A stretch of DNA of 64,000 nucleotides, from contig JAHVJD010000006.1 of NCBI GenBank assembly GCA_019801415.1, positions 1-64,000 of the forward strand, in the 5' to 3' direction. This document shows positions 4,539-23,506 of the stretch, in pieces (positions within the stretch are counted from its first letter, which is position 1; each line of letters opens with the position of its first letter). The stretch is from Nocardioides marinus (GTDB lineage: Bacteria > Pseudomonadota > Alphaproteobacteria > Rhodobacterales > Rhodobacteraceae). The translations under genes were made by a program, and so were the position numbers. Below the pieces are notes generated by a model that saw only the letters and a list, made by a program, of their open reading frames with translations, made no database searches and was not told the DNA's origin.

Positions 4539-4546
4539 GCTGCGGG

Positions 4547-5515: not shown

Positions 5516-5610
5516 GGAATATCCTCCCGATATTAAACGCGCTGAAAGAGCAGGCGTGTATCAGGAAGGGATGCGCAAATGCACCTCACCGCGCAATGGT
5601 TGCGATATTA

Positions 5611-5627
5611 AGTGAAATTTTTTCACT
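5611..5627. promoter_or_regulatory. Candidate operator upstream of TAXI-TRAP operon
   Basis: AGTGAAATTTTTTCACT is a perfect 7-bp inverted repeat with a TTT centre. It overlaps the last codon region and TAG stop of the LacI gene and lies about 100 bases upstream of the receptor start. It resembles the site at 2470-2484. Confidence 0.55.
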
Positions 5628-6606: not shown

Positions 6607-7030
6607 GTCGCGATCATAGATCGGAAATCTGCCCCATGTGCAATTCCCCGCATCGCGTGCGCCCGCCCATCCTAGCCAGGCGGACCAGAGCGCGAAAAAC
6701 TGTGAAACAGGGGCCAGCGCCGCCGGGATCTCCTTCGCGATGTGTCGAGCGGCGGGTGCGAGGTCATCCCCACCCCGGCATGAGTGCCCAACCTGCCGAT
6801 CAAGATCCGTCGACGACTCCGAGTGCTGGTGGCGAACGCAGCGACGACTGAAATTTTTCACTCTCCTTGCGCGATATTGCGGCGGCGCGGACGGTTTCCT
6901 ATGCAGGTCGCCACGTACCGGCAGGCCCGGCGACGCGGAGGTGCGCAGATAAGGATGGCAGGCCCTGCCCCGGCCCCGATCCCCTGCCCCGACCTCCCCT
7001 TGCAGATGAAACGCGATAGCAGAGGCGCAG
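6607..7030. other. Divergent intergenic region, LacI gene / aldolase gene
   Basis: This 424-base region holds no convincing gene. It carries the candidate operator at 6849-6860 and must hold the two divergent promoters. I could not place -35/-10 boxes with confidence. The leader before the aldolase gene is C-rich. Confidence 0.5.
6849..6860. promoter_or_regulatory. Candidate operator between LacI and aldolase genes
   Basis: TGAAATTTTTCA (perfect 5+2+5 inverted repeat) within ACTGAAATTTTTCACT. It is one base shorter in the centre than the sites at 2471-2483 and 5613-5625, so membership of the same set is probable but not certain. Confidence 0.45.
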
Positions 7031-7856: not shown

Positions 7857-8861
7857 TCAGTTGCGCGGGACCTCTGCCATGCGAGCCAGGATGTCGACGC
7901 CCTGCTGCTTCCAGAAGTGCAAAAGGTCGATAAAGATCCAGTTCTCGGCCAACTTATCCCCCTGACGGCGATAGATGTCGATCACCCGGAACTCCCCGGC
8001 CTTGTCGGTTGCCGGCATCCCCATGAAGCCGCCGGTCGGACGGGCGGTGAAGTTCGGCCAGCCGAAGAAGCCGCCGAAATGGCCCTCGGCGAGGCGGCAG
8101 ATGTGTTTCGTCTTGGATCGATCTGTGAATCCCGCTCGGAAGGGCCCGGAGTGCTGCTTGGCATAACGTTCAATGGTGTAGGTGGCGCCGATCCCGGCCG
8201 GACCCCACCAGATCATGTCTTCTGCCCAGGTCTGACGTAGCTCGTCCTCAAGCGACAGCCCGCTGTTCCACTGGCCCAGGTCGGAGATCATCGCATTGAT
8301 CGTCGCAAGCGTCTTTTCCCCCTCTTCCGGCGGCTGCCGGTCGTACATGAGGCCATCATGGGTCATCGGTCCGGGTTGCACGAGATGCGCGGCGGTCTGC
8401 GGCGGAAATGGCTGCAACCCTGCCTGCATCATCAGATGCGGGATGTCGAAATACATCGCCGTCTCGGTGATCTTGCCATCTTCGACGCGATTGAACTCGC
8501 AGTACCGCAGGAATGCCATCTTGCCGGTGGGGGCGATCCCCAGCCAGGACGCGTCGAACAACCCCATCAAATGGCCCATCGAAACAACCCAGGTCGAGGC
8601 AAAGCCGTCCATCTCGTTCAAGCCGGCAAAGAACACGTCTTCGCGTCGCTGCAGGTGTCGCAAGGCCTTGAGCAGGGGCGTCCAGAACACTTCGGCAACC
8701 GCCTCCGCGCCCTGCTGTTCATTGAAGGGATGGTACCCCCGCCAGATGTGATTCGAGGCATAATGACGCGACAGAACCTCGGCCGCGCCCTCTCCGCCCG
8801 TCGCGTCGAGTTCGGCGTAAAGCTCCCTGACAACTTGTTTTTCCGATGAAAAATCCGGCAT
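7857..8861 (-). CDS. Tandem NTF2/SnoaL-like domain protein (1)
   Basis: A 334-residue protein with two consecutive NTF2/SnoaL-like cone folds and no signal peptide. Domain 1 ends with WLGIAPTGKMAFLRY, FNRVEDGKI and FDIPHLMMQAG. The linker contains PGPMTHDGL. Domain 2 ends with FMGMPATDK, LAENWIFIDLLHFW and QQGVDILARM. The same design recurs at 15365-16420, where the linker reads PGPATHDGI, so the two are paralogues. The fold hosts small isomerases, hydratases and cyclases as well as non-catalytic binding proteins. I cannot say which this is. The start at 8861 has GGGAG ten bases upstream; an ATG at 8879 is possible. It is divergent from the ABC-transporter operon and shares its two-operator promoter region. 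Confidence 0.8.
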   Translation of the reverse strand: MPDFSSEKQVVRELYAELDATGGEGAAEVLSRHYASNHIWRGYHPFNEQQGAEAVAEVFWTPLLKALRHLQRREDVFFAGLNEMDGFASTWVVSMGHLMGLFDASWLGIAPTGKMAFLRYCEFNRVEDGKITETAMYFDIPHLMMQAGLQPFPPQTAAHLVQPGPMTHDGLMYDRQPPEEGEKTLATINAMISDLGQWNSGLSLEDELRQTWAEDMIWWGPAGIGATYTIERYAKQHSGPFRAGFTDRSKTKHICRLAEGHFGGFFGWPNFTARPTGGFMGMPATDKAGEFRVIDIYRRQGDKLAENWIFIDLLHFWKQQGVDILARMAEVPRN

Positions 8862-8874
8862 TCCAAACGCTCCC

Positions 8875-8888
8875 TGCATACGTGTGCA
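8875..8888. promoter_or_regulatory. Candidate LacI-type operator 1, divergent promoter
   Basis: TGCATACGTGTGCA shows the pattern TGCA-n2-CG-n2-TGCA, with matching A and T inside the arms. It overlaps the leader of the minus-strand NTF2-like gene and lies 55 bases centre to centre from operator 2. Confidence 0.55.
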
Positions 8889-8896
8889 AAAAAGTC

Positions 8897-8926
8897 TTGC
8901 CAAAAACTTTGCCCCGAGTCTACCTT
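8897..8926 (+). promoter_or_regulatory. Candidate promoter of the ABC/NTF2/HisD-like operon
   Basis: TTGCCA (8897-8902) and TACCTT (8921-8926), 18 bases apart, form a plausible sigma-70-type promoter. Operator 2 follows directly and would cover the transcription start. Assigned by eye only. Confidence 0.35.
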
Positions 8927-8927
8927 A

Positions 8928-8945
8928 TTTGCAATCGTATGCAAA
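8928..8945. promoter_or_regulatory. Candidate LacI-type operator 2, divergent promoter
   Basis: TTTGCAATCGTATGCAAA has perfect 6-base outer arms and a central CG, as in many LacI-family operators. The LacI gene inside the operon (17189-18208) is the natural candidate to bind it. Confidence 0.6.
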
Positions 8946-8976
8946 AGCGGCTGACAGCAGCCGGCAGGGAGACGTC

Positions 8977-10029
8977 ATGGCCGAGATTCAACTGCGCAAT
9001 GTGGGCAAACGCTGGGGGTCGTTCGTCGGTGTCGACAATTTCGACCTCACCATCGCGGACAAGGAATTTCTGGTGCTGTTGGGGCCTTCGGGCTGCGGCA
9101 AGACCACCACAATGCGGATGATTGCCGGGCTCGAAGAGGCCAGCGAAGGCGACATTCTGATCGACGGGCAGCGCGTCAACGACATGGAACCCAAGGACCG
9201 CGACGTGGCGATGGTGTTCCAGTCCTACGCGCTTTATCCGAACATGAATGTCTACGAGAACATCCGCTTCCCGCTGAAGGTCCGGGGCATCGACCCCAAG
9301 ACCCACGACGAGAAGGTCCGCCGTGCCTCGGCGATGGTTGAACTCGACGACTTCCTGCACCGCAAGCCGGCCGAATTGTCCGGCGGTCAGCGCCAGCGCG
9401 TCGCCCTGGCCCGTGCCATCGTGCGGGAGCCCAACGTCTTCCTGATGGACGAGCCGCTATCGAACCTCGACGCCAAGCTGCGCGTCTCCACCCGCGCCCA
9501 GATCAAGAACCTCAGCCACGAGCTGGCGGTGACCACCATCTACGTGACCCACGACCAGATCGAGGCGATGACGCTGGCCGACCGCGTGGTGGTGATGAAG
9601 AAGGGCGTGGTGCAACAGGTCGGTAGCCCGACCGAAATCTACGACCGCCCCGCAAATACCTTCGTCGCCAGCTTCATCGGCAACCCGGCGATGAACCTGA
9701 TGGAGGGCGAGGTCCAGGGCGGCACCTTCCGCGCCAGGAACGTCGAGATCTCCGGCCTGAGCGCCCCCAACGGCCCGCTGACCCTTGGCTTCCGCGCCGA
9801 GGATGCCGGCATCGCAGAGCCGGGCCACGGCCAGATCAACGCGCCGATCTACACGATGGAGCTGCTCGGCGACGCCACCATGATCTCGGTCCGCGTCGGC
9901 GGCGCTCTGGTCTCGGTCAAGGCGGACAAGACCTTCCGCGCCGAGATCGGCGAGATGGTGTCGATCGCTGTGCCCCAGCACATCTGCCACCTCTTCGACG
10001 GAGAAACCGGCGCGCGGATCGGAGGCTGA
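8977..10029 (+). CDS. ABC transporter ATP-binding protein, carbohydrate type (UgpC/MsmK-like)
   Basis: A 350-residue ATPase. Walker A GPSGCGKT is at 36-43, the Q-loop Gln at 82, the signature LSGGQ at 134-138, Walker B FLMDEP at 155-160, and the switch His at 192. A C-terminal regulatory domain of about 110 residues, as in MalK/UgpC, follows and includes LGFRAEDAGI. It powers the permease pair encoded at 11415-13377. I chose the ATG at 8977 because GGGAGAC precedes it; the frame extends upstream to 8884 but that part crosses the promoter and operator. First gene of a long operon ending near 21742. Confidence 0.93.
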   Translation: MAEIQLRNVGKRWGSFVGVDNFDLTIADKEFLVLLGPSGCGKTTTMRMIAGLEEASEGDILIDGQRVNDMEPKDRDVAMVFQSYALYPNMNVYENIRFPLKVRGIDPKTHDEKVRRASAMVELDDFLHRKPAELSGGQRQRVALARAIVREPNVFLMDEPLSNLDAKLRVSTRAQIKNLSHELAVTTIYVTHDQIEAMTLADRVVVMKKGVVQQVGSPTEIYDRPANTFVASFIGNPAMNLMEGEVQGGTFRARNVEISGLSAPNGPLTLGFRAEDAGIAEPGHGQINAPIYTMELLGDATMISVRVGGALVSVKADKTFRAEIGEMVSIAVPQHICHLFDGETGARIGG

Positions 10030-10103
10030 ACCGCTCGCGATACAGAAGGCGCTAACGTCCCACCCCAAGCCTCGGAAAAGCAAAAGCCAACAGGGAGATT
10101 ACC

Positions 10104-11348
10104 ATGCTAATGAAAAGACTTGCTACTGCCTCACTATTTGCCGGACTGATGAGCTCGGCCGCCTTTGCCGCTGATTGCGGCCCTGAGGGGCAGTCGATCC
10201 GCATTCTGGCCAGCGACTTCCCCGCGATTCATGCGGTGGTTGAAGCCGCGCAAGCGAACTGTGCTGCCGCTGCTGCCGAATTCACCGTCAACCACACCAC
10301 CGAAGCGCGTCAGATCATGAACGCGGCGCTGACGCCGAACCCGGCGGAATACACCTCGGTGATCCTCGCCAACGCGACCCTGACCCAGCTGATGAACGAC
10401 GGGCTGGTGCGGCCGCTGAACGATCTGGTTGAGAAGTACAAGGACAGCATCCCGCCGAACGTACTGATCACCATCGACGGCAAAGTGATGGCGGTCGCCT
10501 TCATGGCCAACTCGCAGCACCTGTTCTCGCGCAAGGACATCCTCGAGCAGGCCGGTGTCGAAGGCATCCCCGCATCTTATGAGGAAGTGCTGGAAGCGGC
10601 GGAGAAGATCCGCGCGGCGGGCATCATGGAACACCCCCTGGTGATGAACCTGCAAACCGGCTGGAATGTCGGCGAAGTCTTCAACATGATCTATCTCGGC
10701 CACGGCGGTGAGTTCTTCGCGCCCGGCTCTGCCGAGCCTTCGATCAACAACGAAAAAGGCATCGCCACGCTCAACACCATGAAGGCGCTGGTGGAATACG
10801 CCCACCCGGACCACCTGACCCATGCCTCCAACGAGACCCAGGGCCTGTGGGAATCCGGCCAGGCGGCACTGGCCATCATGTGGGGCTCGCGCGGCGCGCC
10901 GATCCTGGATGACGAAGGCTCCACCGAAGAAGTGACCTCGAATACGGTTCTGTCGGCAGCTCCCACCGTCGGCGGCGGCTCGACGCCTGCGGCCACCCTG
11001 TGGTGGGACGGCATCTCGATCGCGGCCAATATCCCGGATGCAGACGCCGAGGCCACCTTCGCGGCCCTCATCAGCGGTCTCAACCCGGAAATGGTGGCGG
11101 CCAACAACGACGATGCGGTCTGGCTGCTGCCCGGCTTTGAGCCCGGCCCTGCCGCCGCAGGTGTCGCGGCGACCGCGCAGGGCGGTGCTCGGCCCTACCC
11201 AATGATCCCGCAGATGGGCCTGCTGCACGCAGCGCTCGGTTCGGAACTGACCGACTTCCTGAAAGGCGGCGAAAGCGCCGAACAGGCGCTGGCAGATGTC
11301 GAGACCGCCTATCGGACCTCGGCCAAGGAAGCCGGTTTCCTCAAGTAA
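10104..11348 (+). CDS. ABC transporter extracellular solute-binding protein, family 1
   Basis: A 414-residue periplasmic receptor. The signal peptide runs MLMKRLATASLFAGLMSSAAFA with cleavage likely before ADCGPEG. The mature protein has the two-lobed family 1 layout: an N-terminal IRILASDFPAIHAVV strand-helix, a mid-region AFMANSQHLFSRKDILEQAGV segment, and a late PTVGGGS/LWWDGISIAAN hinge region. It delivers substrate to the MalFG-type permeases that follow. GGGAG lies six bases before the ATG at 10104; MKRL at 10110 is an alternative start. The next gene begins after a hairpin at 11362-11381. The ligand is unknown; the family covers sugars, polyols and glycerophosphodiesters. Confidence 0.92.
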   Translation: MLMKRLATASLFAGLMSSAAFAADCGPEGQSIRILASDFPAIHAVVEAAQANCAAAAAEFTVNHTTEARQIMNAALTPNPAEYTSVILANATLTQLMNDGLVRPLNDLVEKYKDSIPPNVLITIDGKVMAVAFMANSQHLFSRKDILEQAGVEGIPASYEEVLEAAEKIRAAGIMEHPLVMNLQTGWNVGEVFNMIYLGHGGEFFAPGSAEPSINNEKGIATLNTMKALVEYAHPDHLTHASNETQGLWESGQAALAIMWGSRGAPILDDEGSTEEVTSNTVLSAAPTVGGGSTPAATLWWDGISIAANIPDADAEATFAALISGLNPEMVAANNDDAVWLLPGFEPGPAAAGVAATAQGGARPYPMIPQMGLLHAALGSELTDFLKGGESAEQALADVETAYRTSAKEAGFLK

Positions 11349-11361
11349 ACCTCCCCGACTG

Positions 11362-11381
11362 GAGGGGGCTCCGGCCCCCTC
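11362..11381 (+). promoter_or_regulatory. Intercistronic hairpin after solute-binding-protein gene
   Basis: GAGGGGGC-TCCG-GCCCCCTC, an 8-bp stem with a four-base loop, followed by ACCTTTTCC. It could act as a partial terminator that lets more receptor than permease be made. Confidence 0.5.
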
Positions 11382-11414
11382 ACCTTTTCCGGACAGAAGA
11401 CTGAGACGCACGCC

Positions 11415-12446
11415 ATGAAGCACCGCACCTTTTTCTGGTTCATCCTGCCGACGCTATCCGCGATGATCCTCTTCATCGCACTGCCCATCGTCTCGGTTTT
11501 CATCCAGTCCTTGTTCGTCGAGCACGAACAGGTCCTGGTGGTCTCCGAGAGCTGCGGCCCGTTCGGCTGCTCTCCCACCACCACGGTGGACGTCGCAGCC
11601 ACCGAGAAACTGCGGCAGGAACAGCCGCTGGGCCAGTTCAACGGGCTCGGCACCTACATCAACCGCTCGCATCTGGCCTTTGCGGAGGTCGGCGAAGCCT
11701 GGCGGACCACCGAAACCTTCCGCGCCTTCTGGAAACAGGTCTCCAACCTGCCCTTCTACCGCGCGCTGATCTTCACGCTGACCTATACGGCCGTCGTCAC
11801 GCCAGTGGTGATCGCCCTTGGCCTCGCGATTGCCGTGGGGGTGAACAACCTGCCCCGCATGCTCAAGGGGCCGTCGATCTTCATCTCGCTGCTGCCGTTC
11901 CTGGTGACCCCGCTGGTCGGTTCGCTGATCCTGTTCTGGATGGTCGACAGCGACGGCGTGATCGGTGCCACCATCCAGCGCGTCTTCAACGACCCGTCGC
12001 TCAGCCTCAAGGCCTCCACCACGCTGACCTGGACCATGCTGATCGTCTACGGCATCTGGCACACCCTGCCGTTCAGCTTCATCACTTTCTACGCCGGGCT
12101 GCAGACCGTGCCCGAGGACACCATGGAAGCGGCGATGATCGACGGCGCCTCGAAATGGCAGCGCATGATCCACGTGATCGTACCGCACCTGTCACCGCTG
12201 ATGGCCTTCGTGACGCTGATGCTGCTGATGGACAACTTCCGCGTTTTTGAGCCGATCGTCAGCTTCAAGGCCGAGGCGCACGCCACCTCGCTCAGCTGGA
12301 TCATCTACAACGACCTGCGCGAAAGCGGCAATCCGCTCTACGGCTCGGCCGGGGCAACCTCGATGATGACCATCATCGGCGTGGTGATCCTGCTGACCCC
12401 GGTGCTGATCCGCACCTGGCGCGACTTCTCCCGCAAAGCACACTGA
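11415..12446 (+). CDS. ABC transporter permease, MalF/UgpA type
   Basis: A 343-residue inner-membrane protein with about six transmembrane helices, the first at residues 8-29. The coupling loop reads EAAMIDGASKWQRMIHVIVP, the standard EAA motif that docks on the ATPase. Between helix 1 and helix 2 is an insert of roughly 90 residues with a Cys pair (ESCGPFGC), probably periplasmic and reminiscent of the extra loop in MalF. It forms the channel with the next permease, whose gene begins ten bases after this stop. Confidence 0.92.
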   Translation: MKHRTFFWFILPTLSAMILFIALPIVSVFIQSLFVEHEQVLVVSESCGPFGCSPTTTVDVAATEKLRQEQPLGQFNGLGTYINRSHLAFAEVGEAWRTTETFRAFWKQVSNLPFYRALIFTLTYTAVVTPVVIALGLAIAVGVNNLPRMLKGPSIFISLLPFLVTPLVGSLILFWMVDSDGVIGATIQRVFNDPSLSLKASTTLTWTMLIVYGIWHTLPFSFITFYAGLQTVPEDTMEAAMIDGASKWQRMIHVIVPHLSPLMAFVTLMLLMDNFRVFEPIVSFKAEAHATSLSWIIYNDLRESGNPLYGSAGATSMMTIIGVVILLTPVLIRTWRDFSRKAH

Positions 12447-12456
12447 GGGCACGAAC

Positions 12457-13377
12457 ATGGCAACCAAGGCACAATCCTCCATCGCAGTCCCGGCAGTGAA
12501 CCCCAAGTCCCGCTCCCGCGTCTCGCTGCTCACGGTGGTTTCCCTGGCGCTGGTGGCGCTCTGGCTGATCATCGCCGCCTTCCCTTTCTTCTGGACCTTC
12601 TGGGGCAGCTTCAAGGTGCAGTCGGACTTCTTCTCCAAGACCGACTGGCAGAACGCCATCTACGGGGTCAACACGATCCAGCAGACCGGCAGCGCCTTCA
12701 CGCTCGATGGCTACCGCGGCGCCTGGGTGGAAGAGGAATTCTGGCGCAATGTCATCAACTCCGGCATCGTGGTGTTCTTCACCGTGGTGATCTCGCTCAC
12801 CTTCGGCACGCTTGGCGGCTACGCGCTCGCTCGTTCGGGACGCCGCTATGCCTTCTGGCTCCTGATGGCCGCGCTGGTGTTCCGCGCCATGCCGCATATC
12901 ACCCTTGTCTCGGGCTACCTCTTGCCGTTCTTCGAGTGGAACATCTGGGGCATCCTGCCGACCACCATCATCGTGCTTGTGGCGATCAACCAGCCCTTCA
13001 CCCTGTGGATGCTGCACTCCTTCTTCCTCAACATCCCCAAGGACATGGACGAAAGCGCCATGGTCGACGGCTGCACCCGCTTTCAGGCATTCCGCCACGT
13101 GATCATCCCGGTGATGTGGCCCGGCGTCATCACCACCGGCCTGTTCAGCTTCCTTCTGGCCTACAACGACTTTGCGGTGACCGCGATGCTGCTCAGCTCC
13201 GAGAATGAGACCATCATTCCCGCGATCAACAGCTTCCTCGGCACCACGCAGGTCGAAGGCAAGGTGATGTACGCCGTCGCCGCCGTGGTCTCCGCCACTG
13301 CCCCGCTGTTCGTGCTGATCCTGTTCTTCCAGCGCCAGATCGTCAGCGGCCTGACCGCCGGTGCGGTCAAAGGCTGA
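12457..13377 (+). CDS. ABC transporter permease, MalG/UgpE type
   Basis: A 306-residue membrane protein with six predicted helices, the first around residues 25-47. The EAA-type loop reads ESAMVDGCTRFQAFRHVIIP and the C-terminus ends ..RQIVSGLTAGAVKG, the usual ending for MalG-like subunits. It pairs with the 11415-12446 product. The stop is followed by a 136-base structured gap before the first NTF2-like gene of the operon. Confidence 0.92.
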   Translation: MATKAQSSIAVPAVNPKSRSRVSLLTVVSLALVALWLIIAAFPFFWTFWGSFKVQSDFFSKTDWQNAIYGVNTIQQTGSAFTLDGYRGAWVEEEFWRNVINSGIVVFFTVVISLTFGTLGGYALARSGRRYAFWLLMAALVFRAMPHITLVSGYLLPFFEWNIWGILPTTIIVLVAINQPFTLWMLHSFFLNIPKDMDESAMVDGCTRFQAFRHVIIPVMWPGVITTGLFSFLLAYNDFAVTAMLLSSENETIIPAINSFLGTTQVEGKVMYAVAAVVSATAPLFVLILFFQRQIVSGLTAGAVKG

Positions 13378-13403
13378 TGAGCAGCGCCGCAAGACATAAC
13401 GCC

Positions 13404-13492
13404 GTTGGGCGCCACCCGGCGCTCAACCGGATGCCAAGGGATTTTTTGACGGACGGTCGTCTCCTCCCCGTCTGACCACATCATCCCTTGGC
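13404..13492 (+). promoter_or_regulatory. Structured RNA region inside the operon
   Basis: This lies within the 136-base gap 13378-13513. Hairpin 1 is GTTGGGCGCC-ACCC-GGCGCTCAAC (13404-13427), with one G-T pair. A perfect 10-bp long-range repeat, GCCAAGGGAT (13433-13442) and ATCCCTTGGC (13483-13492), encloses 40 bases and ends just before the ribosome site of the next gene. It may set relative expression of the transporter and the enzymes. Confidence 0.45.
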
Positions 13493-13513
13493 AACAAATT
13501 GAAGGAATAGAGC

Positions 13514-14044
13514 ATGAAAGGCTCCCGCCCCGAACAAGCCGTGCTGACCAAAGACACGGACATGAGCAAGACCGAAGAAACCCGCCGCGTGATCGAAAAC
13601 ATGGTAGACGGGCTGAACGACCACCGGATCAGCGACATCGGCGAGTTCTTTGCCGAAGGTTTTCGCTGGATGGGCAACCAGGGCTGCGGCACCAAGAACG
13701 GGCTGAAGGAATTCCAGGACAACTGGCAGCGCCCCTTCCAGGCCGCCTTCTCCGACAAGGTCTGCATCGACGAGGCCCGCCTCTACATGGGCGAATGGGC
13801 TGCCGCCTTCGGCCGCCAGGAAGCCACCCATTCCGGCACTTTCCTCGGCATCGAACCCACCGGCAAGCGGGTCGAGATCCGTTACATGGACTTCTGGAAG
13901 GTCCAGGACGGCAAGATCGTGGACAACTGGGTAAACGTCGATTTCGCCCATGTCGCCGCCCAGCTCGGCGTTGACCTGTTCAACGGCGAGGGCTGGGAAG
14001 CTTTTGACCGCGGGGAAAAAACGCCTCCGCGCCCCGCAAACTAA
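13514..14044 (+). CDS. Single-domain NTF2/SnoaL-like protein (2)
   Basis: A 176-residue protein with a single NTF2/SnoaL-like fold. The late part, [45 protein letters not shown], matches the second domain of the larger paralogues in this operon. No signal peptide. The ATG at 13514 has AAGGAA at a good distance; MSKTEE at 13562 is a possible shorter start. It lies 10 bases ahead of the HisD-like copy B, so the two are probably made together. It may act on a product of that enzyme; no catalytic residues can be assigned from sequence alone. Confidence 0.8.
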
Positions 14045-14054
14045 GGACGACAGG

Positions 14055-15368
14055 ATGACCATCGAATACCTGAAACGCGGCAAGTCTGACGCGGACCGTG
14101 CCGAAGACGACGCCAAGACCCGTGCCGTGGTGGAAGCCACGCTGAAGGACATCGAAACCCGCGGCGATGCCGCCGTGCGCGAGCTAAGCGAAAAGTTCGA
14201 CAACTACAGCCCCGAAAGCTTCCGCCTCAGCCAGCAGGAGATCGACGAGCTGATCGCCTCGCTCAGCGACCGCGAGCTGGCCGACATCAAGTTTGCGCAG
14301 GAGCAGGTGATGAACTTCGCCCAGGCGCAGCGCGACTCGATGCTGGACATCGAGGTAGAGACGCTGCCCGGCGTGATCCTCGGCCACAAGAACATCCCGG
14401 TGCAGTCGGTCGGCTGCTATGTGCCCGGCGGCAAGTTCCCGATGGTGGCTTCGGCGCATATGTCGGTTGCCACCGCCAAGGTCGCGGGCGTGCCGCGCAT
14501 CATCGCCTGCACCCCGCCGTTCCAGGGCAAGCCCAATGCCGCGGTGATTGCCGCGATGCATCTGGGCGGCGCGCATGAGATCTATGTGATGGGCGGCATC
14601 CAGGCGATCGGCGCCATGGCTATCGGCACCGAGACCATCGACCCGGTGCACATGCTGGTCGGCCCCGGTAACGCCTTCGTGGCGGAAGCCAAGCGCCAGC
14701 TGTTCGGCCGCGTCGGCATCGACCTCTTTGCAGGCCCGACCGAAACGATGGTGATCGCGGACGAGACTGCCGCGGATGCGGAACTCTGCGCCACCGACCT
14801 CCTGGGCCAGGCCGAGCACGGTTACAACAGCCCCTGCGTGCTGCTGACCAACTCCCGCAAGCTGGCCGAGGAAACGCTGAGCGAGATCGACCGTCTGCTG
14901 GGCATCCTGCCCACCGCCGGCACCGCCAAGGTGTCGTGGGAGGAATACGGCGAGGTGATTGTCTGCGACACCTACGACGAGATGCTGAAGGTCGCCGATG
15001 ACATCGCCTCCGAGCACGTGCAGGTGATGACCGACCGCGACGACTGGTTCCTGGAAAACATGACCTGCTACGGCGCGCTGTTCCTCGGCCCCCGAACCAA
15101 CGTCGCCAACGGCGACAAGGTGATCGGCACCAACCACACCCTGCCGACCAAGAAGGCGGGCCGCTACACCGGCGGGCTCTGGGTGGGCAAGTTCCTGAAA
15201 ACCCACAGCTACCAGAAGGTTGTGACCGACGAGGCCGCCACCATGATCGGCGAGTACGGCTCGCGCCTGTGCATGCTGGAAGGCTTCGTCGGCCACGCCG
15301 AACAATGCAACATCCGTGTCCGCCGCTATGGCGGCAAGAACGTGGCTTACGGAGAGGCAGCAGAATGA
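14055..15368 (+). CDS. Histidinol dehydrogenase-family protein (HisD/HpsN-like), copy B
   Basis: A 437-residue zinc-dependent dehydrogenase almost identical to copy A (1054-2385). Through the first ~427 residues I see only four changes: Asn157 to Gln, Gln169 to His, Ser238 to Thr and Thr390 to Val. The C-terminal tail differs ([12 protein letters not shown] against the longer tail of copy A). All HisD-type active-site residues are kept: Gln252, His255, Glu320, His321, Asp354 and His414. The flanking DNA is unrelated between copies. The ATG at 14055 follows AGGACGACAGG. Its stop overlaps the next start (ATGA). It probably carries out the same two-step alcohol oxidation as copy A, here on a substrate brought in by an ABC transporter. 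Confidence 0.85.
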
Positions 15369-16420
15369 CGACCGACGTCCACACCCAAAACAAGGCGCTG
15401 ATCGCGCCGATGCGCGAGGCGATGCGCGACTTCAGCGAGAAGGGCGTGCGCGCCGCGCTGCAAGAGCTGATCGCGCCCGACGCAGTGGTGCATATGTGTC
15501 ACCCCTTCGGCGACCTCACCGGCCCGGCGGAGCTCTATGACACCTGCTATGCGCCGCTGCTGCAGTCCATGCCGGACCTCGAGCGTCGTGACTGGATCGT
15601 CATGGGCGGGCGCACCGAACATGGCGGCGACTGGATCGGCTGCGGCGGCCATTACTACGGCACCTTCGTGCGGCCCTGGCTGGACATCCCGCCGACCGGG
15701 CATCTGACCCACATGCGGTTCCACGAGTTCTACCGGTTCGAGGAAGGCCGCGTGGTCGAGATCCAGACCATCTGGGACATCCCAGAGGTGATGATGCAGG
15801 CAAACGCCTGGCCGATGGCGCCCTCACTCGGTCTCGAGTTCTGCATCCCCGGCCCGGCCACGCATGACGGCATCGTGCCGGGGCCCTGGGACGAGGAAAA
15901 ATCCCAGACCTCCTGCGCGCATATCGTCGAGATGCTCAATCACCTGAAGAAACACCCGAGCCAGGGCGGCCCGGAGGTGATGGAGATGCCGAAGTTCTGG
16001 CACGAACGGATGAACTGGTACGGTCCTGCAGGCATCGGCACCGGCCGTGGCATCGCGGGCTTCCGCAACTGGCACCAGATCCCGTTCCTGAACGGGATGC
16101 CCGACCGCGGCCAATACCTGGACGAGATCACCTACCACTTCTTCGGCGATGGCGAATATGCCGCGGTGACCGGCTGGCCCAACATGATCCAGACCGTCAC
16201 CCATGACGGCTGGATGGGTATTGCACCGTCGGGCAAACGCATCACCATGCGCTCGCTGGACTTCTGGCGACTGGAGAATGGCAAGATCCGCGAAAACTGG
16301 GTCACGGTGGACATTCTGGACGCCTACCGCCAGTTGGGCGTAGATGTCTTCGCCCGCCTGCGCGAGTTCAACAAGGCCCGCGTGGCTGGCGAGATCCCCT
16401 TCCCTGTCAGCGAGGTTTGA
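15365..16420 (+). CDS. Tandem NTF2/SnoaL-like domain protein (3)
   Basis: A 351-residue protein with two NTF2/SnoaL-like domains. Domain 1 contains [18 protein letters not shown] and [14 protein letters not shown]. The linker has PGPATHDGI. Domain 2 contains [33 protein letters not shown] and [19 protein letters not shown]. Its closest relative in the window is the protein at 7857-8861. The ATG at 15365 overlaps the stop of the HisD-like gene by four bases, so translation is coupled; this is the strongest evidence that the two act in the same pathway. Cytoplasmic, no signal peptide. The reaction is unknown. Confidence 0.82.
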
Positions 16421-16421
16421 C

Positions 16422-17189
16422 ATGTCCACCTTCCCCAGCACTCCCAGTTTCAGCCTTGAAGGCAAGAATGCCCTGATCGCCGGCGCCTCGTCGGGGATCG
16501 GAATGGCCTGCGCCGTTGCATTGGCTGAACACGGTGCTGAGGTCACCCTTGCAGCGCGTCGCACGGAGGCGCTGCAAACCATCGCGGCAGAAATGACCGC
16601 CCGCGGCTGGAAAGCACGCGTACTGCAGCTGGATGTCGCGGATGTCGAGGCAACGGCAGAAGCTGTCGCCGAAAATGGCCCCTTTGACATCCTTGTGAAC
16701 TCCGCCGGCCTTGCCCGCCACGGCAAGGCCGTGGAGACCGCGCCGGAGGATTTCGACGCGGTGATGGGCGTCAACGTCCGCGGCGCCTACTTCCTGACAC
16801 AGGCCGTGGCCAAGGGGCTGATCGCAGCGGGCCGTCCCGGTTCGCTCATCAACATCTCCAGCCAGATGGGCCACGTCGGCGGGCGCGAGCGCGCCGTCTA
16901 TTGCGCATCGAAATTCGCGGTCGAAGGCTTCACCAAGGCAATGGCGCTGGAATTCGGACCCGCGAAGATCCGCGTCAACACGGTCTGCCCGACCTTCATC
17001 CTCACCGATCTCACCCGGCCGACGTTTGACGATCCGGAAAAACGCGCCTGGGTGCTGGACAAGATCAAGCTGGGCCGCCCGGGCGAGGTCGAGGACATCA
17101 TGGGCGCGGTGGTCTACCTCGCGTCGGATGCCGCCAGCCTCGTCACCGGCACGGCGCTGATGGTCGACGGAGGTTGGACGGCAGACTGA
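16422..17189 (+). CDS. SDR-family NAD(P)-dependent oxidoreductase
   Basis: A 255-residue classical SDR. The cofactor motif is AGASSGIG near residue 20, NSAG is near 93, the active-site serine is in NISSQMGH, YCASK is near 160, and the end is LMVDGGWTAD. It is a paralogue of the SDR at 199-963, sharing QMGHVGG, DKIKLGR-type and GEVEDIMGAVVYLASDA segments. Thus each HisD/HpsN-like copy has an SDR partner. The ATG at 16422 lies two bases after the preceding TGA, and its own stop overlaps the LacI start (TGATG). Confidence 0.88.
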   Translation: MSTFPSTPSFSLEGKNALIAGASSGIGMACAVALAEHGAEVTLAARRTEALQTIAAEMTARGWKARVLQLDVADVEATAEAVAENGPFDILVNSAGLARHGKAVETAPEDFDAVMGVNVRGAYFLTQAVAKGLIAAGRPGSLINISSQMGHVGGRERAVYCASKFAVEGFTKAMALEFGPAKIRVNTVCPTFILTDLTRPTFDDPEKRAWVLDKIKLGRPGEVEDIMGAVVYLASDAASLVTGTALMVDGGWTAD

Positions 17190-18208
17190 TGGCAACGAGC
17201 AAGGTCACCTCACTGGACGTTGCCCGCCTTGCGGGTGTCAGCCAATCCGCGGTCAGCCGGGTGTTCACCCCCGGTGCCTCGGCTTCCAAGAAGACCATCG
17301 AAAAGGTCCGCAAGGCAGCCGAGCAACTGGGCTACCGGCCCAATGTTCTGGCCCGCGCCATGGTCTCCGGCAAAAGTGGCATCATCGGGCTGGTGGTGGC
17401 CTATCTCAACAACCAGTACTACCCCGAAGCGCTGGAAAAACTGACCAATGCCTTGCAGGAGCGCGGCTATCACGTGCTCGTCTTCCTCGCCTCCCACTCT
17501 GCGGGCAACATCGACACCGTGGTTGACGAAATCCTGGATTTCCAGGTCGACGGTATCATCGCCGCCTCGGTTGCGCTGTCCTCGGATCTCTCCGCCCGCT
17601 GCCAGGCGGCGGGCGTGCCGATGGTGCTGTTCAACCGGGCTCAGGACGATCCCTCGATGTCGGCGGTGACCTCCGACAATATCGCGGGCGGCCGCAAGGC
17701 GGCAGAATTCCTTCTGGCCGGCGGCCACAAGAAAATCGGTTATATCGCCGGTTGGGAAGGTGCCTCGACCCAGCGTGACCGCGAGGCGGGGTTTCTTTCC
17801 GCCCTGCAAGCCGCGGGGATGCCGCTGCACGCCCGCGAAGTCGGCAACTTCGTCACCGAAGAGACACAGGAAGCCACCCGCCGCATGTTCGCGCAGGATC
17901 CGCCCGATGCGGTGTTCGTCGCCAACGACCACATGGCAATCACGGTGATGGACACGCTGCGTTTTGAACTGGGCCTGCGAGTGCCCGAGGACGTCTCGGT
18001 CATCGGCTACGACGATGTGACCGTCGCCGCCTGGCCCACCTACAACCTCACCACCGTGCGGCAGCCCGCCAACCGCATGGTGGCCGAAACCGTCGACATC
18101 ATCCTGGCCAAGATCGAGGACGCCGAAGTGCGCCCGCGCCGGGTCGAGATCGACGGCCCACTTATTGTTCGCGGCTCCGCCCGCATACCTGAAGGATGGA
18201 AGACATGA
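17189..18208 (+). CDS. LacI-family transcriptional regulator
   Basis: A 339-residue LacI-type repressor. The helix-turn-helix is at residues 6-28 (TSLDVARLAGVSQSAVSRVF), followed by KKTIEKVRKAAEQLGYRPN and the hinge. The effector domain has SGIIGLVV, VDGIIAASV, TSDNIAGGRKAAEFL, KKIGYIAGW, AVFVANDHMAITVMD and DVSVIGYDDVTVAAWP. It lies inside the catabolic operon, coupled at both ends (TGATG with the SDR, ATGA with the next gene), so it would be induced with the pathway it probably controls. Its likely targets are the TGCA-n6-TGCA sites at 8875-8888 and 8928-8945. Confidence 0.9.
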   Translation: MATSKVTSLDVARLAGVSQSAVSRVFTPGASASKKTIEKVRKAAEQLGYRPNVLARAMVSGKSGIIGLVVAYLNNQYYPEALEKLTNALQERGYHVLVFLASHSAGNIDTVVDEILDFQVDGIIAASVALSSDLSARCQAAGVPMVLFNRAQDDPSMSAVTSDNIAGGRKAAEFLLAGGHKKIGYIAGWEGASTQRDREAGFLSALQAAGMPLHAREVGNFVTEETQEATRRMFAQDPPDAVFVANDHMAITVMDTLRFELGLRVPEDVSVIGYDDVTVAAWPTYNLTTVRQPANRMVAETVDIILAKIEDAEVRPRRVEIDGPLIVRGSARIPEGWKT

Positions 18209-19179
18209 AGGGATTTGACCCCAAGTTCAAGGATTTCCCCGATTACATCATTGGCATTACCAAAGAGATCTGGGAAGACCGCGGCATCGCCACGCTGCAC
18301 GACTACTACGCGCCGGACATCGTTGTACGCTCGCCTGCCTCGGTGGTGGTCGGCAACGAGGGCGTGATCGCCGCCACCATGGCGACGCTGGCCGAGTTCC
18401 CCGACCGTACCCTTCTGGGCGAGGACGTGATCTGGTCCGGCACACCCGAAGAGGGCATGCTGTCCTCGCACCGCCTGCTGTCCACCGCGACCCACCTGGG
18501 TGATGGTGTCTATGGCAAGGCCACCGGCAAGAAGCTCACCTACCGCATCATTGCCGACTGCCATGCGATCAACAATCAGATCAACGACGAATGGCTGATC
18601 CGCGACCAAGGCGCCATCGTGCGCCAGATGGGCTGGGACCCCAAGGACTACGCGCGCGACCTGATCGCGCGCGAGGGCGGGCCGGACAACTGCGTGCAGC
18701 CCTACACCCCGGCCAACGATCAGCCCGGCCCCTACAAGGGCCATGGCAATGACAACGAATGGGGTCAGAAATACGCCGATATCCTGACCCGGATCATGAA
18801 CGCCGACATGCGGGTGATCGAAAGCGAATACGACCGCGCGGTGCAGTCGGAATATCCCGGCGGCAGCACCGGCCACAGCTTCGGCCCGGTGGACCGCTTT
18901 TGGATGGGGCTGCGCGCCGCTTTCCCGAACGCCGAGTTCAAGATCCACCACCAGATCGGCCGCGACGACCCGATGATGCCGCCGCGCGCCGCGCTGCGCT
19001 GGACATTGCATGGCAAGCACGACGGCTGGGGCGCCTTTGGCAAGCCGACCGGCGCCGAGGTGTTTGTGCTGGGCGCCAGCCATGCCGAGTTCGGCCCCTG
19101 GGGCCTGCGCCGCGAGTACACGCTGTTCGACGAAACCTCGGTCTGGAAACAGATCCTGCTGCAGACGGGCGATCTCTGA
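18205..19179 (+). CDS. Large NTF2/SnoaL-like (ester cyclase-type) protein (4)
   Basis: A 324-residue protein with two NTF2/SnoaL-like regions. It is more distant from the other three and lacks their PTGK and THDG marks. The N-terminal half has WEDRGIATLHDYYAPDIVVRSP and VGNEGVIAATMATLAEFPD, the typical SnoaL/ester-cyclase opening. The C-terminal half has FWMGLRAAFPNAEFKIHH and ALRWTLHGKHDGWGAFGKPTG. I chose the ATG at 18205, which overlaps the LacI stop (ATGA) with GAAGGATGG upstream; an ATG at 18196 is also in frame but sits too close to the ribosome site. Function unknown. Confidence 0.78.
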   Translation: MKGFDPKFKDFPDYIIGITKEIWEDRGIATLHDYYAPDIVVRSPASVVVGNEGVIAATMATLAEFPDRTLLGEDVIWSGTPEEGMLSSHRLLSTATHLGDGVYGKATGKKLTYRIIADCHAINNQINDEWLIRDQGAIVRQMGWDPKDYARDLIAREGGPDNCVQPYTPANDQPGPYKGHGNDNEWGQKYADILTRIMNADMRVIESEYDRAVQSEYPGGSTGHSFGPVDRFWMGLRAAFPNAEFKIHHQIGRDDPMMPPRAALRWTLHGKHDGWGAFGKPTGAEVFVLGASHAEFGPWGLRREYTLFDETSVWKQILLQTGDL

Positions 19180-19296
19180 ATGAGGCCCGGTGCCTCTCCT
19201 CTGGACGCCAGTGAGGCGGCGCGGCGGTTTCACACCCACCGCGCCAGCCTGCGCGCCCGGCGGCTGAACAACCGCCCGCCCGGGCGTGCGGTCTGA
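19180..19296 (+). CDS. Possible small arginine-rich ORF, 38 residues
   Basis: An ATG directly abuts the preceding stop (TGA-ATG), giving a 38-residue Arg/Ala-rich frame (MRPGASPLDASEAARRFHTH...). It fills most of the 157-base gap before the bicupin gene. The position suits translational coupling, but no family is recognisable and GC-rich DNA often yields such frames by chance. Confidence 0.25.
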   Translation: MRPGASPLDASEAARRFHTHRASLRARRLNNRPPGRAV

Positions 19297-19336
19297 ACCC
19301 GCTGCATTCAACCCGGATTTTAAGAGGATACCAGAC

Positions 19337-20296
19337 ATGACCACACTTCAGGACCGCATCGTCCGCTACGGCGAGCTGAAACCCTGCAAAACCGCCTTCA
19401 TCGACGCCCACACCCCGGGCTCCGACCAGAAGGAGAACTTCACCATCATCGGCGGCGGCGTCAGCGAAAGCCCCGACCAGCACGTCCACATCACCGACCA
19501 GATCGGATTCAACATCGGCGCGGCCGGCCAGCCGCCGAAATGCCGCAACTCGCTGCACAGCCACACCACGGCCGAGGTCTTCTTCGTGCTGAAGGGGCGC
19601 TGGCGCTTCTTCTGGGGCCGCCACGGTGACGCAGGCGAATTCATCGCCGAGGAAGGCGACATCTTCAACATCCCCACCGGCATCTTCCGCGGCTTTGAAA
19701 ACGTCGGCACCGATTACGGGATGATCATGGCGATCCTCGGCGGCGACGATGCCGGCGGCGGCGTGACCTGGGCCCCCCAGGTGATCGAGGAAGCCAGCGC
19801 TCATGGGCTGGTGCTGGGCGAAAACGGCGTGCTCTACGACAGCAAGAAGGGACAGAGCCTGCCCGACGGCATCAAGCCGATGCCGCTGCTGACCGAGGAA
19901 CAGCTGAAGGCCTACCCGGAGGTGCCGGTGGAGAACGTGGTGCGGGACTACGTGGCGCGCTACTGGGACCTGATGGCGCTGGCAGCCAAAAAGCCCGCCA
20001 AGGTGATCGGCGCGGACGGGCTGCTGAAGGACCGTCCCGGCTTCGAGGTCGAATTCCTGACCCGCGGGTCGCTGGATGGCACCCCGGTGGCCTGCGAAAA
20101 GCCCAATGTGCTGATGCCGGTGCGCGGCCACTGGCAGCTGCGCACCGAGGGGCTCGACACCATCCTCAACCCCGGCGACACCGCGCTGCTGCTGCCCGGC
20201 GAGAGCTATCAGCTCGAACCGTCGATGACCGGCGAAGCCAGCCTCTACCGCGTGGTCGCAACCGACGATCCGGCCGGCGCCACCTGGCAAGGCTGA
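19337..20296 (+). CDS. Cupin-domain protein (bicupin)
   Basis: A 319-residue protein with two cupin barrels. The N-terminal barrel carries a metal-binding pattern, NSLHSHTTAEVFFVLKGRWRF, with His-x-His and a following Glu, then GDIFNIPTGIFRGFENVG. The C-terminal barrel (VLMPVRGHWQLRTEG, LNPGDTALLLPG) lacks the His pair, so it is probably structural. No signal peptide. The ATG at 19337 follows AAGAGGATA. In a catabolic operon such a protein could be a dioxygenase, isomerase or sugar-acid lyase-type enzyme. The exact reaction is not inferable. Confidence 0.82.
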   Translation: MTTLQDRIVRYGELKPCKTAFIDAHTPGSDQKENFTIIGGGVSESPDQHVHITDQIGFNIGAAGQPPKCRNSLHSHTTAEVFFVLKGRWRFFWGRHGDAGEFIAEEGDIFNIPTGIFRGFENVGTDYGMIMAILGGDDAGGGVTWAPQVIEEASAHGLVLGENGVLYDSKKGQSLPDGIKPMPLLTEEQLKAYPEVPVENVVRDYVARYWDLMALAAKKPAKVIGADGLLKDRPGFEVEFLTRGSLDGTPVACEKPNVLMPVRGHWQLRTEGLDTILNPGDTALLLPGESYQLEPSMTGEASLYRVVATDDPAGATWQG

Positions 20297-20354
20297 CCTC
20301 GCGCGGGGTGGCCCTTGGGCTGCCCCGCACCACCGCCCCTTCGGAGGAGACCGG

Positions 20355-21047
20355 ATGACCTCGCTTGTTCTGGTTCCGGGCATGATGTGTGACGCCCGGC
20401 TTTTCACCCCGCAGATCGCAGCGTTTTCCGCTCATCACGATCTGCATCTCGCCACTTTGACGCAGCCCGGCAGCATCAGCGACAAGGCGCGCGCCATTCT
20501 CGACACTGCGCCGCCGCGTTTTGCCCTGTGCGGCCTGTCGATGGGCGGCATCGTCGCAATGGAAGTCCTGCGCCAGGCACCTGACCGGGTCAATCGTATT
20601 GCGCTGCTGGACACCAACCCGCTGGCCGAGAAGGACGAGGTCAAGGAACGACGCCAGCCGCAGATGGCAGAGGTGCGCGCGGGCGGGCTGGCTTCGGTGA
20701 TGCAGCAGCAGGTCATGCCCAACTACCTGTCGCCGTCACATGAGATGCCGGAGGTTCTGGACCTCTGCCTGGACATGGCGCTGGCGCTTGGGCCGGATGT
20801 GTTTCTGGACCAGTCCGAAGCGCTCATGGCCCGGCCCGACCAGACCGAAACGCTCGCCTCGGCCGATCTGCCTACCCTGGTGCTGTGCGGCCGTGACGAC
20901 CAGCTGTGCCCCTTGGAACGGCATGAGCTGATGGCCGGGCTGATCCCCGGCGCGACACTGGAAATCATCGAGGGCGCGGGTCATCTGACCACGCTCGAAC
21001 AGCCCGAACACACCAATGCAGCGCTGGCGCGCTGGCTGGAGGCCTGA
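20355..21047 (+). CDS. Alpha/beta hydrolase
   Basis: A 230-residue alpha/beta-hydrolase-fold enzyme. The nucleophile elbow is GLSMGG near residue 58, the acid Asp is probably in LCGRDDQLCP, and the catalytic His is in GAGHLTTLEQPE near the C-terminus. There is no lid insertion of note and no signal peptide, so it is a cytoplasmic esterase or C-C hydrolase. GGAGGAGACCGG precedes the ATG at 20355, and the stop overlaps the next start (TGATG). It is near the end of the operon, so it may open an ester or lactone formed earlier. Confidence 0.85.
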   Translation: MTSLVLVPGMMCDARLFTPQIAAFSAHHDLHLATLTQPGSISDKARAILDTAPPRFALCGLSMGGIVAMEVLRQAPDRVNRIALLDTNPLAEKDEVKERRQPQMAEVRAGGLASVMQQQVMPNYLSPSHEMPEVLDLCLDMALALGPDVFLDQSEALMARPDQTETLASADLPTLVLCGRDDQLCPLERHELMAGLIPGATLEIIEGAGHLTTLEQPEHTNAALARWLEA

Positions 21048-21742
21048 TGGACGCTTCGCTTCTGAAACTGCTGAAATCCGTCGACACACCGACCGTCTGC
21101 AACGCCATTGAGGTGGCGCAGGGCAAGCGCGGCTTCGATGCCTTCACCCGCGGCACCATGCTGTGTTCCGACCCGGATGCCGGGGCGATGGTCGGCTACG
21201 CGCGCACCGCCAAGATCGCCGCCGTGAACCCATCGGAGGAACCGTCTGAGGTGATCCGCAAGCGCCGGATGGAATACTACCGGCACATGGCCACGGCTTC
21301 CGGCCCTGCCGTCACCGTGGTCGAGGATCTGGATTACCCCGAGTGCATCGGCGCGTACTGGGGGGAGATCAACACCACCGTCCACAAGGGCTTTGGCATC
21401 AGCGGCGCCCTGACCAACGGCGTGATGCGCGATCTTGGCGACCTGCCCGCGGACTTCCCGGTCGTGGCCGGGTCCATCGGCCCCAGCCATGGTTTCGTGC
21501 ACGTGCGCGAGGTCGCAACCCCAGTCTCCATCTTTGGACTGACCATCCATGACGGCGACCTGGTGCATGCCGACCGCCATGGCGCATTGGTGATCCCGAC
21601 CGAGGTGGTGCCAGACCTAGAACGGGCGATTCAGAAACTTCTGGAGACCGAAAAACTGGTGTTGGAGCCAGCCCGCCAACCCGGTTTCGATTTTGATGCC
21701 TTTGAGCGTGCCTGGCAGGCCTTTGAGGCTGCGCGCACCTAA
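21047..21742 (+). CDS. RraA-like / 4-hydroxy-4-methyl-2-oxoglutarate aldolase family protein
   Basis: A 231-residue RraA-fold protein. Family marks are DTPTVCNAIE at the start, GAYWGEINTTVHKGFGISGALTNGVMRDL in the centre (the Gly-rich loop and conserved Arg-Asp), and GDLVHADRHGALVIP near the end. This fold serves as class II pyruvate aldolases/oxaloacetate decarboxylases and as RNase E inhibitors. The metabolic context favours an aldolase or decarboxylase that releases pyruvate. It is the last gene of the operon, coupled to the hydrolase gene, and a strong terminator follows 40 bases later. Confidence 0.85.
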   Translation: MDASLLKLLKSVDTPTVCNAIEVAQGKRGFDAFTRGTMLCSDPDAGAMVGYARTAKIAAVNPSEEPSEVIRKRRMEYYRHMATASGPAVTVVEDLDYPECIGAYWGEINTTVHKGFGISGALTNGVMRDLGDLPADFPVVAGSIGPSHGFVHVREVATPVSIFGLTIHDGDLVHADRHGALVIPTEVVPDLERAIQKLLETEKLVLEPARQPGFDFDAFERAWQAFEAART

Positions 21743-21781
21743 ACCTCAACGAAACACGCGCTGGCCAATCACGACCAGCGA

Positions 21782-21819
21782 GGCTGAAGCCCGGTTCGGG
21801 CTTCAGCCTTTTCTTTTTT
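21782..21819 (+). terminator. Rho-independent terminator
   Basis: A perfect 12-bp stem, GGCTGAAGCCCG / CGGGCTTCAGCC, with a GTT loop is followed by TTTTCTTTTTT. It closes the plus-strand operon and faces the convergent hut operon. Confidence 0.92.

Positions 21820-21823: not shown

Positions 21824-23502
<1,679 letters not shown>

Positions 23503-23506
<4 letters not shown>

Follow-up and report, generated by a model that had tools for sequence, protein, structure and literature searches.

The stretch analysed here (the window) comprises 64,000 nt of contig JAHVJD010000006.1 (assembly GCA_019801415.1, Rhodobacteraceae in the GTDB lineage), to which all coordinates refer. The unit under study, at 7857-21742, consists of a divergent SnoaL-type gene (A) on the minus strand opposite a 13-gene plus-strand unit, abcK-sbp-per1-per2-E-F-G-H-I-J-K-L-M, which encodes, among others, an ATP-binding cassette (ABC) importer, the HisD-like dehydrogenase F, a short-chain dehydrogenase/reductase (SDR; H), the LacI-family regulator I, the bicupin K and further SnoaL-type proteins (Table 1). 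With a probability of roughly 0.55, we read this unit as a LacI-controlled, horizontally transferred marine catabolic operon that would import a sugar-like or polyol-type compound and degrade it non-phosphorylatively, with no kinase at the entry. The open reading frames (ORFs), strands and protein families given in an earlier sequence-only reading of this DNA all match our ORF calls and Pfam profile search, as do the overlaps it noted from 15365 to 18208 (ATGA at F/G and I/J, TGATG at H/I; G and H are separated by a 1-nt gap with no overlap); L and M likewise overlap by TGATG. The terminator it had placed at 21782 is upheld and has the longest stem (21780-21810) among the 18 terminator-like sites of the scanned stretch (11.1 in shuffles, standard deviation (sd) 3.2). 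Beyond that reading, our analysis brought up a sister operon at 199-7789, a MetE-like gene in relatives, a LacI-type operator and the GKFPM motif of F.

The family was surveyed in 295 genomes (294 genera). G-type SnoaL genes were found in 117 and F-type HisD genes in 142 of them. The two co-occur in 112 genomes, F stands without G in 30 and G without F in 5, and 148 genomes lack both (Fisher p 6.6e-46, with no correction for phylogeny). A SnoaL gene lies within 12 kb of at least 86 of the 148 F places and within 2.5 kb of at least 80. Because of these at least 86 places, the outcome that the sequence-only reading had named as speaking against it (a complete lack of conservation of NTF2-like genes next to the HisD-like gene in related genomes) is not what we found, and the association it proposed holds in other genomes. 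A second genome from the window's genus was searched and had neither a G-type nor an F-type gene; across the phylum, a G-type match at E 1e-40 was present in 22 of 398 genomes, 6 of these outside the family. Eighty named loci were picked by the G pattern from at least 594 candidate stretches, and conservation beside G is therefore conditional on that choice. In these loci, which are of unequal length, genes were counted by tblastn at E 1e-20 (SnoaL counts may contain split hits): J was found in 69, F in 56, E and K in 55 each, H in 53, A in 50, L in 40 and M in 35. Of the named loci, 59 are 20 kb or longer; F was present in 43 of them, and 41 of these 43 had three or more SnoaL matches. The gene order, with A divergent from abcK-sbp-per1-per2-E-F-G-H-I-J-K-(MetE)-L-M, is kept, complete or partial, in many loci, and this conservation bears out the idea of a catabolic unit in which a HisD-like dehydrogenase is combined with an importer of the sugar type. 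The counts from 45 and 90 loci given below contain repeats (of the 40 loci L031-L070, 10 or more have DNA in common with a named locus), and our ORF calls were crude (F went undetected at L211 and L215, two of the 20 F places that were fetched, and antisense ORFs were called in GC-rich loci).

G has likely moved between classes by transfer, because it is nearly as similar to its counterparts in Halomonas urmiana and H. smyrnensis (90% identity) as to that of Leisingera aquaemixtae (95%). At the Halomonas loci L110 and L111, the 90%-identical G stands next to more divergent copies of the other cluster genes, which we read as a recent transfer. SAR116, Halomonas and two plasmids, one of a Vibrio and one haloarchaeal, also carry related clusters, some of which lack a HisD gene; on the plasmids, which belong to Vibrio pelagius and the archaeon Halobellus limi, SnoaL genes are accompanied by an importer, with no annotated HisD in the stretch shown. 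The Halobellus limi plasmid (L072) carries five consecutive ester-cyclase genes, an ABC importer, an aldehyde dehydrogenase gene and a MetE-like gene.

The best PDB matches of F are sulfopropanediol (DHPS) dehydrogenases (386 bits, the best HisD reaching 241). According to PMC11382572, HpsN, the (R)-DHPS 3-dehydrogenase of Cupriavidus pinatubonensis (PDB 8v35), is defined by the motif G-R-Y-A/S-H, with His126 binding the sulfonate, and HisD by G-S-A-P-L. Compared with the residues named there, F shares the fold family, the catalytic Glu/His, the Asp/Lys loop and the Zn ligands, with equivalents of Glu318, His319, Asp352, Lys353, Gln248, His251 and His411 (its stretches SEHVQV and GDKVIGTNH align with the catalytic and Lys353 residues of CpHpsN), and it should retain the NAD/Zn four-electron chemistry, probably the same CH2OH to COOH conversion. 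It differs from HpsN, as described in that paper, in having Met for His126, GKFPM at the motif and different gene company, and neither of the two defining motifs is present. GKFPM was found in 33 of 33 SnoaL-linked F orthologues (not counting a match at L033 with 36% identity, taken as another HisD) and in 15 of 20 other F-type copies, F2 of the sister operon included; the remaining 5 have GNYPL, GAFPM, GKFPL or GKYPL. With HisD, F shares the fold, the reaction type and a P-[LM] motif end resembling that of GSAPL, and it passes the hisD domain model TIGR00069 (424.3 bits, cut-off 243.8), which in our view marks superfamily-level membership alone; unlike HisD, it has GKFPM and sits in a catabolic operon, and the genome has a separate HisD relative, 38% identical, on contig C12. 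By motif, F is a third subfamily, neither HpsN nor HisD, because GKFPM replaces GRY[A/S]H and GSAPL.

These data also bear on a pathway for sulfonates of the DHPS or sulfolactate type, with F acting as HpsN. The ranking of the PDB matches and the retained Lys353 would agree with it, but the sulfonate-binding His is replaced by Met, GKFPM is invariant in the SnoaL-linked orthologues, His occurs in 0 of the 20 other copies, and no desulfonating gene was noticed in the gene set of the window (the relatives were not searched for one). The His126 test led us to reject the HpsN/sulfonate reading of F, the label "HpsN-like" had to be given up in its functional sense, as the HpsN motif is absent, and we consider a sulfonate pathway highly improbable.

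The region between A and abcK contains the LacI-type operator TTGCAnnCGnnTGCAA as a pair, 55 bp apart in the window. Of 90 loci, 77 carry its core, TGCAnnCGnnTGCA, upstream of abcK; there are 125 such sites, compared to an average of 0.06 over 50 dinucleotide-shuffling rounds, and 47 successive pairs are spaced by 54-56 bp (some of the 90 loci are repeated). Of 56 named loci, 48 have at least one strict operator site upstream of abcK, and 34 have two sites spaced by 54-56 bp. Because the paired operator is conserved as a phylogenetic footprint, the A/abcK region is, to judge from sequence comparison, one divergent LacI-type control region, and we infer that the LacI protein I binds the pair; a LacI gene together with a conserved palindromic promoter site is the combination by which we recognise a LacI-controlled operon. 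The single promoter region that the sequence-only reading had assigned to both strands is thus backed by the paired operator, but not by a sigma-70 scan, which gave 4 matches (shuffle mean 2.9, sd 2.2) and, with no excess, no promoter prediction. When one mismatch was allowed, the operator pattern occurred at eleven further places of the own genome, operator 1 included, compared to 2 for a reversed-pattern control. Eight of the ten sites beyond this promoter sit within open frames of at least 150 codons; this check does not discriminate, because both operator sites lie in such frames too.

The presence of four NTF2/SnoaL-like proteins, three of them with two domains, was confirmed: A, G and J have two domains and E has one, with PF07366 scores of 67.3 (A), 75.2 (E), 87.9 (G) and 57.9 (J) against a gathering cut-off of 28.4 bits. 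The SnoaL polyketide methyl ester cyclase model NF033407 (cut-off 200 bits) was not reached by any of them (E scored 37.7; A, G and J were unlisted). A and G are paralogous (31% identity over nearly the full length), E is 35% identical to the C-terminal part of G, and J is distant. Both the PTGK..NW..D..Q.GVD pattern and the GPxTHDG linker pattern pointed out earlier are real and largely conserved in relatives, but the special status of the former could not be maintained; it falls inside stretches matched by PF07366 and is presumably the generic signature of that family. E121 and D299 occupy equivalent sites in the two domains of G and do not vary across the 53 sequences aligned, among them A; their position is one that we take to be that of the catalytic acid in SnoaL. 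With the predicted model of G (predicted local distance difference test (pLDDT) 92.4, predicted template modelling (TM) score 0.92), Foldseek gave its best E-values to the two-domain NTF2 epoxide hydrolases MonBI/MonBII and Lsd19, at a TM of about 0.3 over the query, and the single domains match IdmH, ChaU, AclR and SnoaL2. That the SnoaL proteins are dehydratases or lyases is a possibility we put forward tentatively, with the odds against it. They might instead be ligand-binding or carrier proteins that accompany the importer and are not pathway enzymes, as might be expected from loci that keep importer and SnoaL genes without the remaining genes (the LysR variants, see below) and from as many as 7 SnoaL matches in one locus. 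However, the acid residues are invariant in both domains, and transporters of the SSS and tripartite ATP-independent periplasmic (TRAP) types also accompany SnoaL (6 loci beyond the family, two of them from one genome, have an SSS-type symporter next to the cluster; Pfam was run on one), and we regard a carrier role as quite unlikely.

F looks like a core common to several front ends, with SnoaL as one entry module, because amidase-type or other genes stand beside F instead of SnoaL in some genomes. Of the 20 fetched F places, most of which belong to genomes that lack G-type SnoaL, 4 have an amidase-type gene together with ABC genes in place of SnoaL (L210, L214, L222 and L225; PF01425 was found in 2 of these, the two that were run, and H, K, L or M is also present in some). 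L210, L214 and L222 have an extra HisD-like paralogue (43-44% identical, GRFPL) between the amidase-type gene and F. Other neighbours of F are a TIM-barrel isomerase-like gene (L209, next to genes read as Rbs-type ABC), an N-acetylglucosamine-epimerase-like gene (L217) and a gene for a thiamine diphosphate enzyme (L226, L227), and a further front end combines TRAP with the aldolase. A minimal variant consists of a divergent LysR gene, the importer and one or two SnoaL genes; its LysR is common to 13 loci (at least three genomes are counted twice). This variant was seen at L032, L035, L117, L119, L125, L129, L130, L133 and L136, with L129 and L130 belonging to SAR116. A GarL/HpaI-type aldolase homologue stands beside F or SnoaL in the window, L056, L111, L189, L193 and L216 (the aldolase family search was confined to the window, L193 and L216). 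An amidohydrolase homologue is present in 27 of the 80 named loci, and its relative at L189, where the cluster also has a TonB receptor, is nearest to L-fucono-1,5-lactonase (93 bits, cut-off 400); L216 has a KdgK-like kinase (256 bits, cut-off 400), and L111 has genes for an L-2-hydroxyglutarate oxidase (above cut-off), an Ldh_2 protein and a 2-hydroxyacid dehydrogenase. By homology, these adjoining aldolase, lactonase, kinase, oxidase and dehydrogenase genes point to 2-hydroxy and 2-keto(-3-deoxy) acids.

The predicted model of K (pLDDT 89.6) resembles quercetin dioxygenase and oxalate decarboxylase in a structure search; its sequence gave no PDB match up to E 0.1. In the alignment, H74, H76 and E80 are retained in what we assume to be the first cupin motif, and R118 is invariant where the third metal-binding His would, on the same assumption, be expected. 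K could be read as the dioxygenase of a ring cleavage of some cyclic or aromatic-like algal compound, with L as enol-lactone hydrolase, M as an aldolase of the 4-hydroxy-4-methyl-2-oxoglutarate/4-carboxy-4-hydroxy-2-oxoadipate (HMG/CHA) type and the SnoaL proteins as ring-opening or cyclase-type enzymes. L is indeed nearest to 3-oxoadipate enol-lactonase, K also folds in a way similar to salicylate dioxygenase, M weakly matches LigK/CHA aldolase models, and polyketides are the substrates of SnoaL relatives. Every equivalog cut-off was missed, however, R118 occupies the presumed place of the third metal ligand, the importer is of the sugar type, and relatives of F are accompanied by aldolase and kinase homologues of the 2-keto-3-deoxy sugar-acid type; ring cleavage therefore seems to us unlikely.

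Of the 80 named loci, 49 have a MetE-like gene of the Meth_synt_2 family, which usually lies between K and L; in a set of 45 loci that contains repeats, it is found in 29. Together with sarcosine oxidase or betaine-demethylase genes it could serve to demethylate a marine osmolyte or lipid head group that is methylated or conjugated (e.g., glyceryl betaines), and the glycerol-like end of such a compound would be oxidised by F and H; to judge from its relatives, F may be expected to need HOCH2-CH(OH/NH2)-CH2-X. Sarcosine-oxidase-type genes stand beside SnoaL clusters in 3 loci (two from the same genome), and a GbcA-like oxygenase gene stands beside F in one locus, below cut-off. Against such a substrate, the own genome is without a MetE-like match, few of the sampled loci have sarcosine oxidase or GbcA, and nothing ties the binding protein to a ligand of this kind; we hold it to be improbable. 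At the GbcA-like locus (L224; glycine betaine monooxygenase model), both F and H are adjacent, and a gene resembling old yellow enzyme lies on the other strand. Mycosporines and betaine lipids were also considered and are retained only within this alternative, 20 of 199 papers matching mycosporine catabolism having given nothing relevant; no particular compound is supported.

For the imported sugar-like or polyol-type compound of our preferred reading, the following route may be drawn. The ABC importer would bring the compound into the cell (PDB matches of sbp are weak, mostly to sugar, polyol and sulfoquinovosyl-glycerol binding proteins), and the SnoaL proteins A, E, G and J would act at a substrate-specific entry step, since an amidase-type gene replaces SnoaL in some F loci and the importer accompanies SnoaL; our guess is a dehydration/elimination or a ring or ether opening by the acid/base pocket of the NTF2 fold. 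F would oxidise the terminal HOCH2-CH(OH)- group by four electrons, CH2OH to COOH, giving a 2-hydroxy acid, H may oxidise or interconvert the 2-hydroxyl, L may open a lactone, and M and the neighbouring GarL/HpaI-like aldolase would cleave a 2-keto(-3-deoxy) acid to pyruvate and an aldehyde. Import, oxidation, lactone opening and aldol cleavage were already part of the working model of the sequence-only reading and fit our data, helped by the GarL/HpaI-like aldolase, lactonase-like amidohydrolase and KdgK-like kinase that adjoin F-type or SnoaL genes (all below equivalog cut-offs); the isomerisation or hydration which that model gave to the NTF2-like proteins is unproven. Rather doubtful is the broader proposal that the multi-copy SnoaL proteins are a new catabolic NTF2-fold dehydratase/lyase class which replaces dehydratases of the IlvD/EDD or enolase type and, coupled to the third HisD-like subfamily, forms a route, so far undescribed, by which an abundant polyhydroxylated metabolite of the sea is degraded.

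Several observations weigh against the proposed operon and route. No SnoaL gene was found within 12 kb of 62 of the 148 F places among the matches listed (an upper bound), and the minimal LysR variant had no HisD match in the fetched stretch, so that SnoaL and HisD are separable. A GarL-type aldolase is present in just 1 of the 59 long named loci. The MetE-like gene, so frequent in the named loci, had no match in the own genome (in a search without positive control), and the model accounts neither for it nor for the bicupin or the sarcosine oxidase of relatives. The top Foldseek matches of G are epoxide hydrolases, at a low whole-protein TM, and not dehydratases. Finally, the strict operator is absent in 8 of 56 named loci, and the ten one-mismatch sites beyond this promoter, compared to 2 in the reversed-pattern control, are unaccounted for.

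Table 1. Features of the catabolic unit, its control elements and the sister operon (window coordinates).
Feature	Position	Strand	Evidence or remark
A, two-domain SnoaL/NTF2-fold protein, divergent first gene	7857..8861	-	PF07366 and PF12680 above cut-off
LacI-type operator 1, CTGCATACGTGTGCAA	8874..8889		1 mismatch to TTGCANNCGNNTGCAA; conserved footprint
LacI-type operator 2, TTGCAATCGTATGCAA	8929..8944		sole exact site of the own genome; conserved footprint
abcK, MalK-type ABC ATPase	8977..10029	+	PF00005; OB_MalK below cut-off
sbp, family-1 solute-binding protein	10104..11348	+	PF01547
per1, ABC permease	11415..12446	+	PF00528
per2, ABC permease	12457..13377	+	PF00528
E, single-domain SnoaL	about 13562..14044 (first frame ATG 13514)	+	PF07366
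F, HisD-like dehydrogenase, GKFPM motif	14055..15368	+	PF00815
G, two-domain SnoaL	15365..16420	+	PF07366 in two stretches
H, SDR oxidoreductase	16422..17189	+	PF13561
I, LacI-family regulator	17189..18208	+	PF00356 and PF13377
J, two-domain SnoaL	about 18205..19179 (18196 start also possible)	+	PF07366 and PF12680
K, bicupin	about 19337..20296	+	PF07883
L, alpha/beta hydrolase	20355..21047	+	nearest 3-oxoadipate enol-lactonase, below cut-off
M, RraA-like aldolase/decarboxylase family	21047..21742	+	PF03737
Intrinsic terminator	21780..21810	+	14-pair stem and T-run
Second SDR	199..963 (start approximate)	-	59% identical to H
F2, second GKFPM HisD-like gene	1054..2385	-	
TAXI-TRAP transporter	2582..4480 (permease, DctM-type); 4547..5515 (binding protein)	-	TIGR02122 above cut-off, PF06808, PF16868
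Second LacI-family regulator	5626..6620 (start uncertain)	-	PF13377 and PF00356; 39% identical to I
HpcH/HpaI (GarL/HpaI-like) aldolase family protein	7031..7789	+	PF03328

A starts with the ATG at 8861, the TTG at 8903 being merely a mechanical start. In the sister operon, F2 is 98% identical to F in protein and 95% in DNA, with 56 of the 66 differing codons synonymous and the two genes about 12 kb apart on opposite strands, suggesting a duplication or gene conversion under selection. The aldolase-family product has GarL and HpaI as its best models, both below cut-off (GarL model TIGR03239, 143.7 bits against 406.75), and is a member of the HpcH/HpaI superfamily. A similar set of LacI, TRAP-associated extracytoplasmic immunogenic (TAXI)-TRAP and F genes was found in 2 of the 20 fetched F places, L216 (with SDR and HpcH) and L228 (with RraA), and the Halomonas locus L111 has much of both sets together (TRAP, TAXI, LhgO, Ldh_2, HpcH aldolase, 2-hydroxyacid dehydrogenase, F, H, J, G, K, L, M and A). 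The sister operon would probably feed a related, TRAP-imported compound into shared downstream chemistry. On the minus strand at 21824-27040, convergent with the unit, an apparent histidine-utilisation operon (urocanase, formylglutamate amidohydrolase, HutH, HutI) can be recognised from translations alone. At the contig edge (1 to about 190, minus strand) there is a fragment which seems to resemble the start of the alpha subunit of NAD(P) transhydrogenase.

Every part of the unit belongs to a known family, and searches of the open-licence PMC literature brought up no description of the gene set (subscription papers and preprints were outside the search). The SnoaL/ester-cyclase family (PF07366), Lsd19 and MonBI/MonBII share with the proteins studied here the fold of each domain and the tandem arrangement of NTF2 domains, but identity is about 12-26%, and the neighbours here are catabolic genes instead of genes of polyketide synthesis. 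Non-phosphorylative sugar-acid pathways (GarL, HpaI, 2-keto-3-deoxygluconate) resemble the system in the aldolase, lactonase and kinase types that accompany F-type or SnoaL genes, below equivalog cut-offs; in contrast to them, the window set has no IlvD/EDD or enolase-type dehydratase by Pfam, and there is a HisD-like oxidation step. In PMC4103551, two HisD spots of the Roseobacter litoralis proteome change in opposite directions (+2.20 and -2.08); one of them might be of the F type. The "ester cyclase" in PMC10890935 is an enzyme of chlorophyll synthesis.

The wide occurrence of these genes (SnoaL in 117 and HisD-like in 142 of the 295 family genomes, and in other groups) implies a common, mostly marine substrate, because they are widespread in the family and recur in SAR116, Halomonas and plasmid clusters. 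The GKFPM-type HisD provides a ready marker gene for the system, and with the conserved operator, the inducer could be sought by means of a reporter. A catabolic role becomes conceivable for NTF2-fold proteins, and identifying the compound, for which the searched literature yielded no name, would uncover part of the ocean food web.

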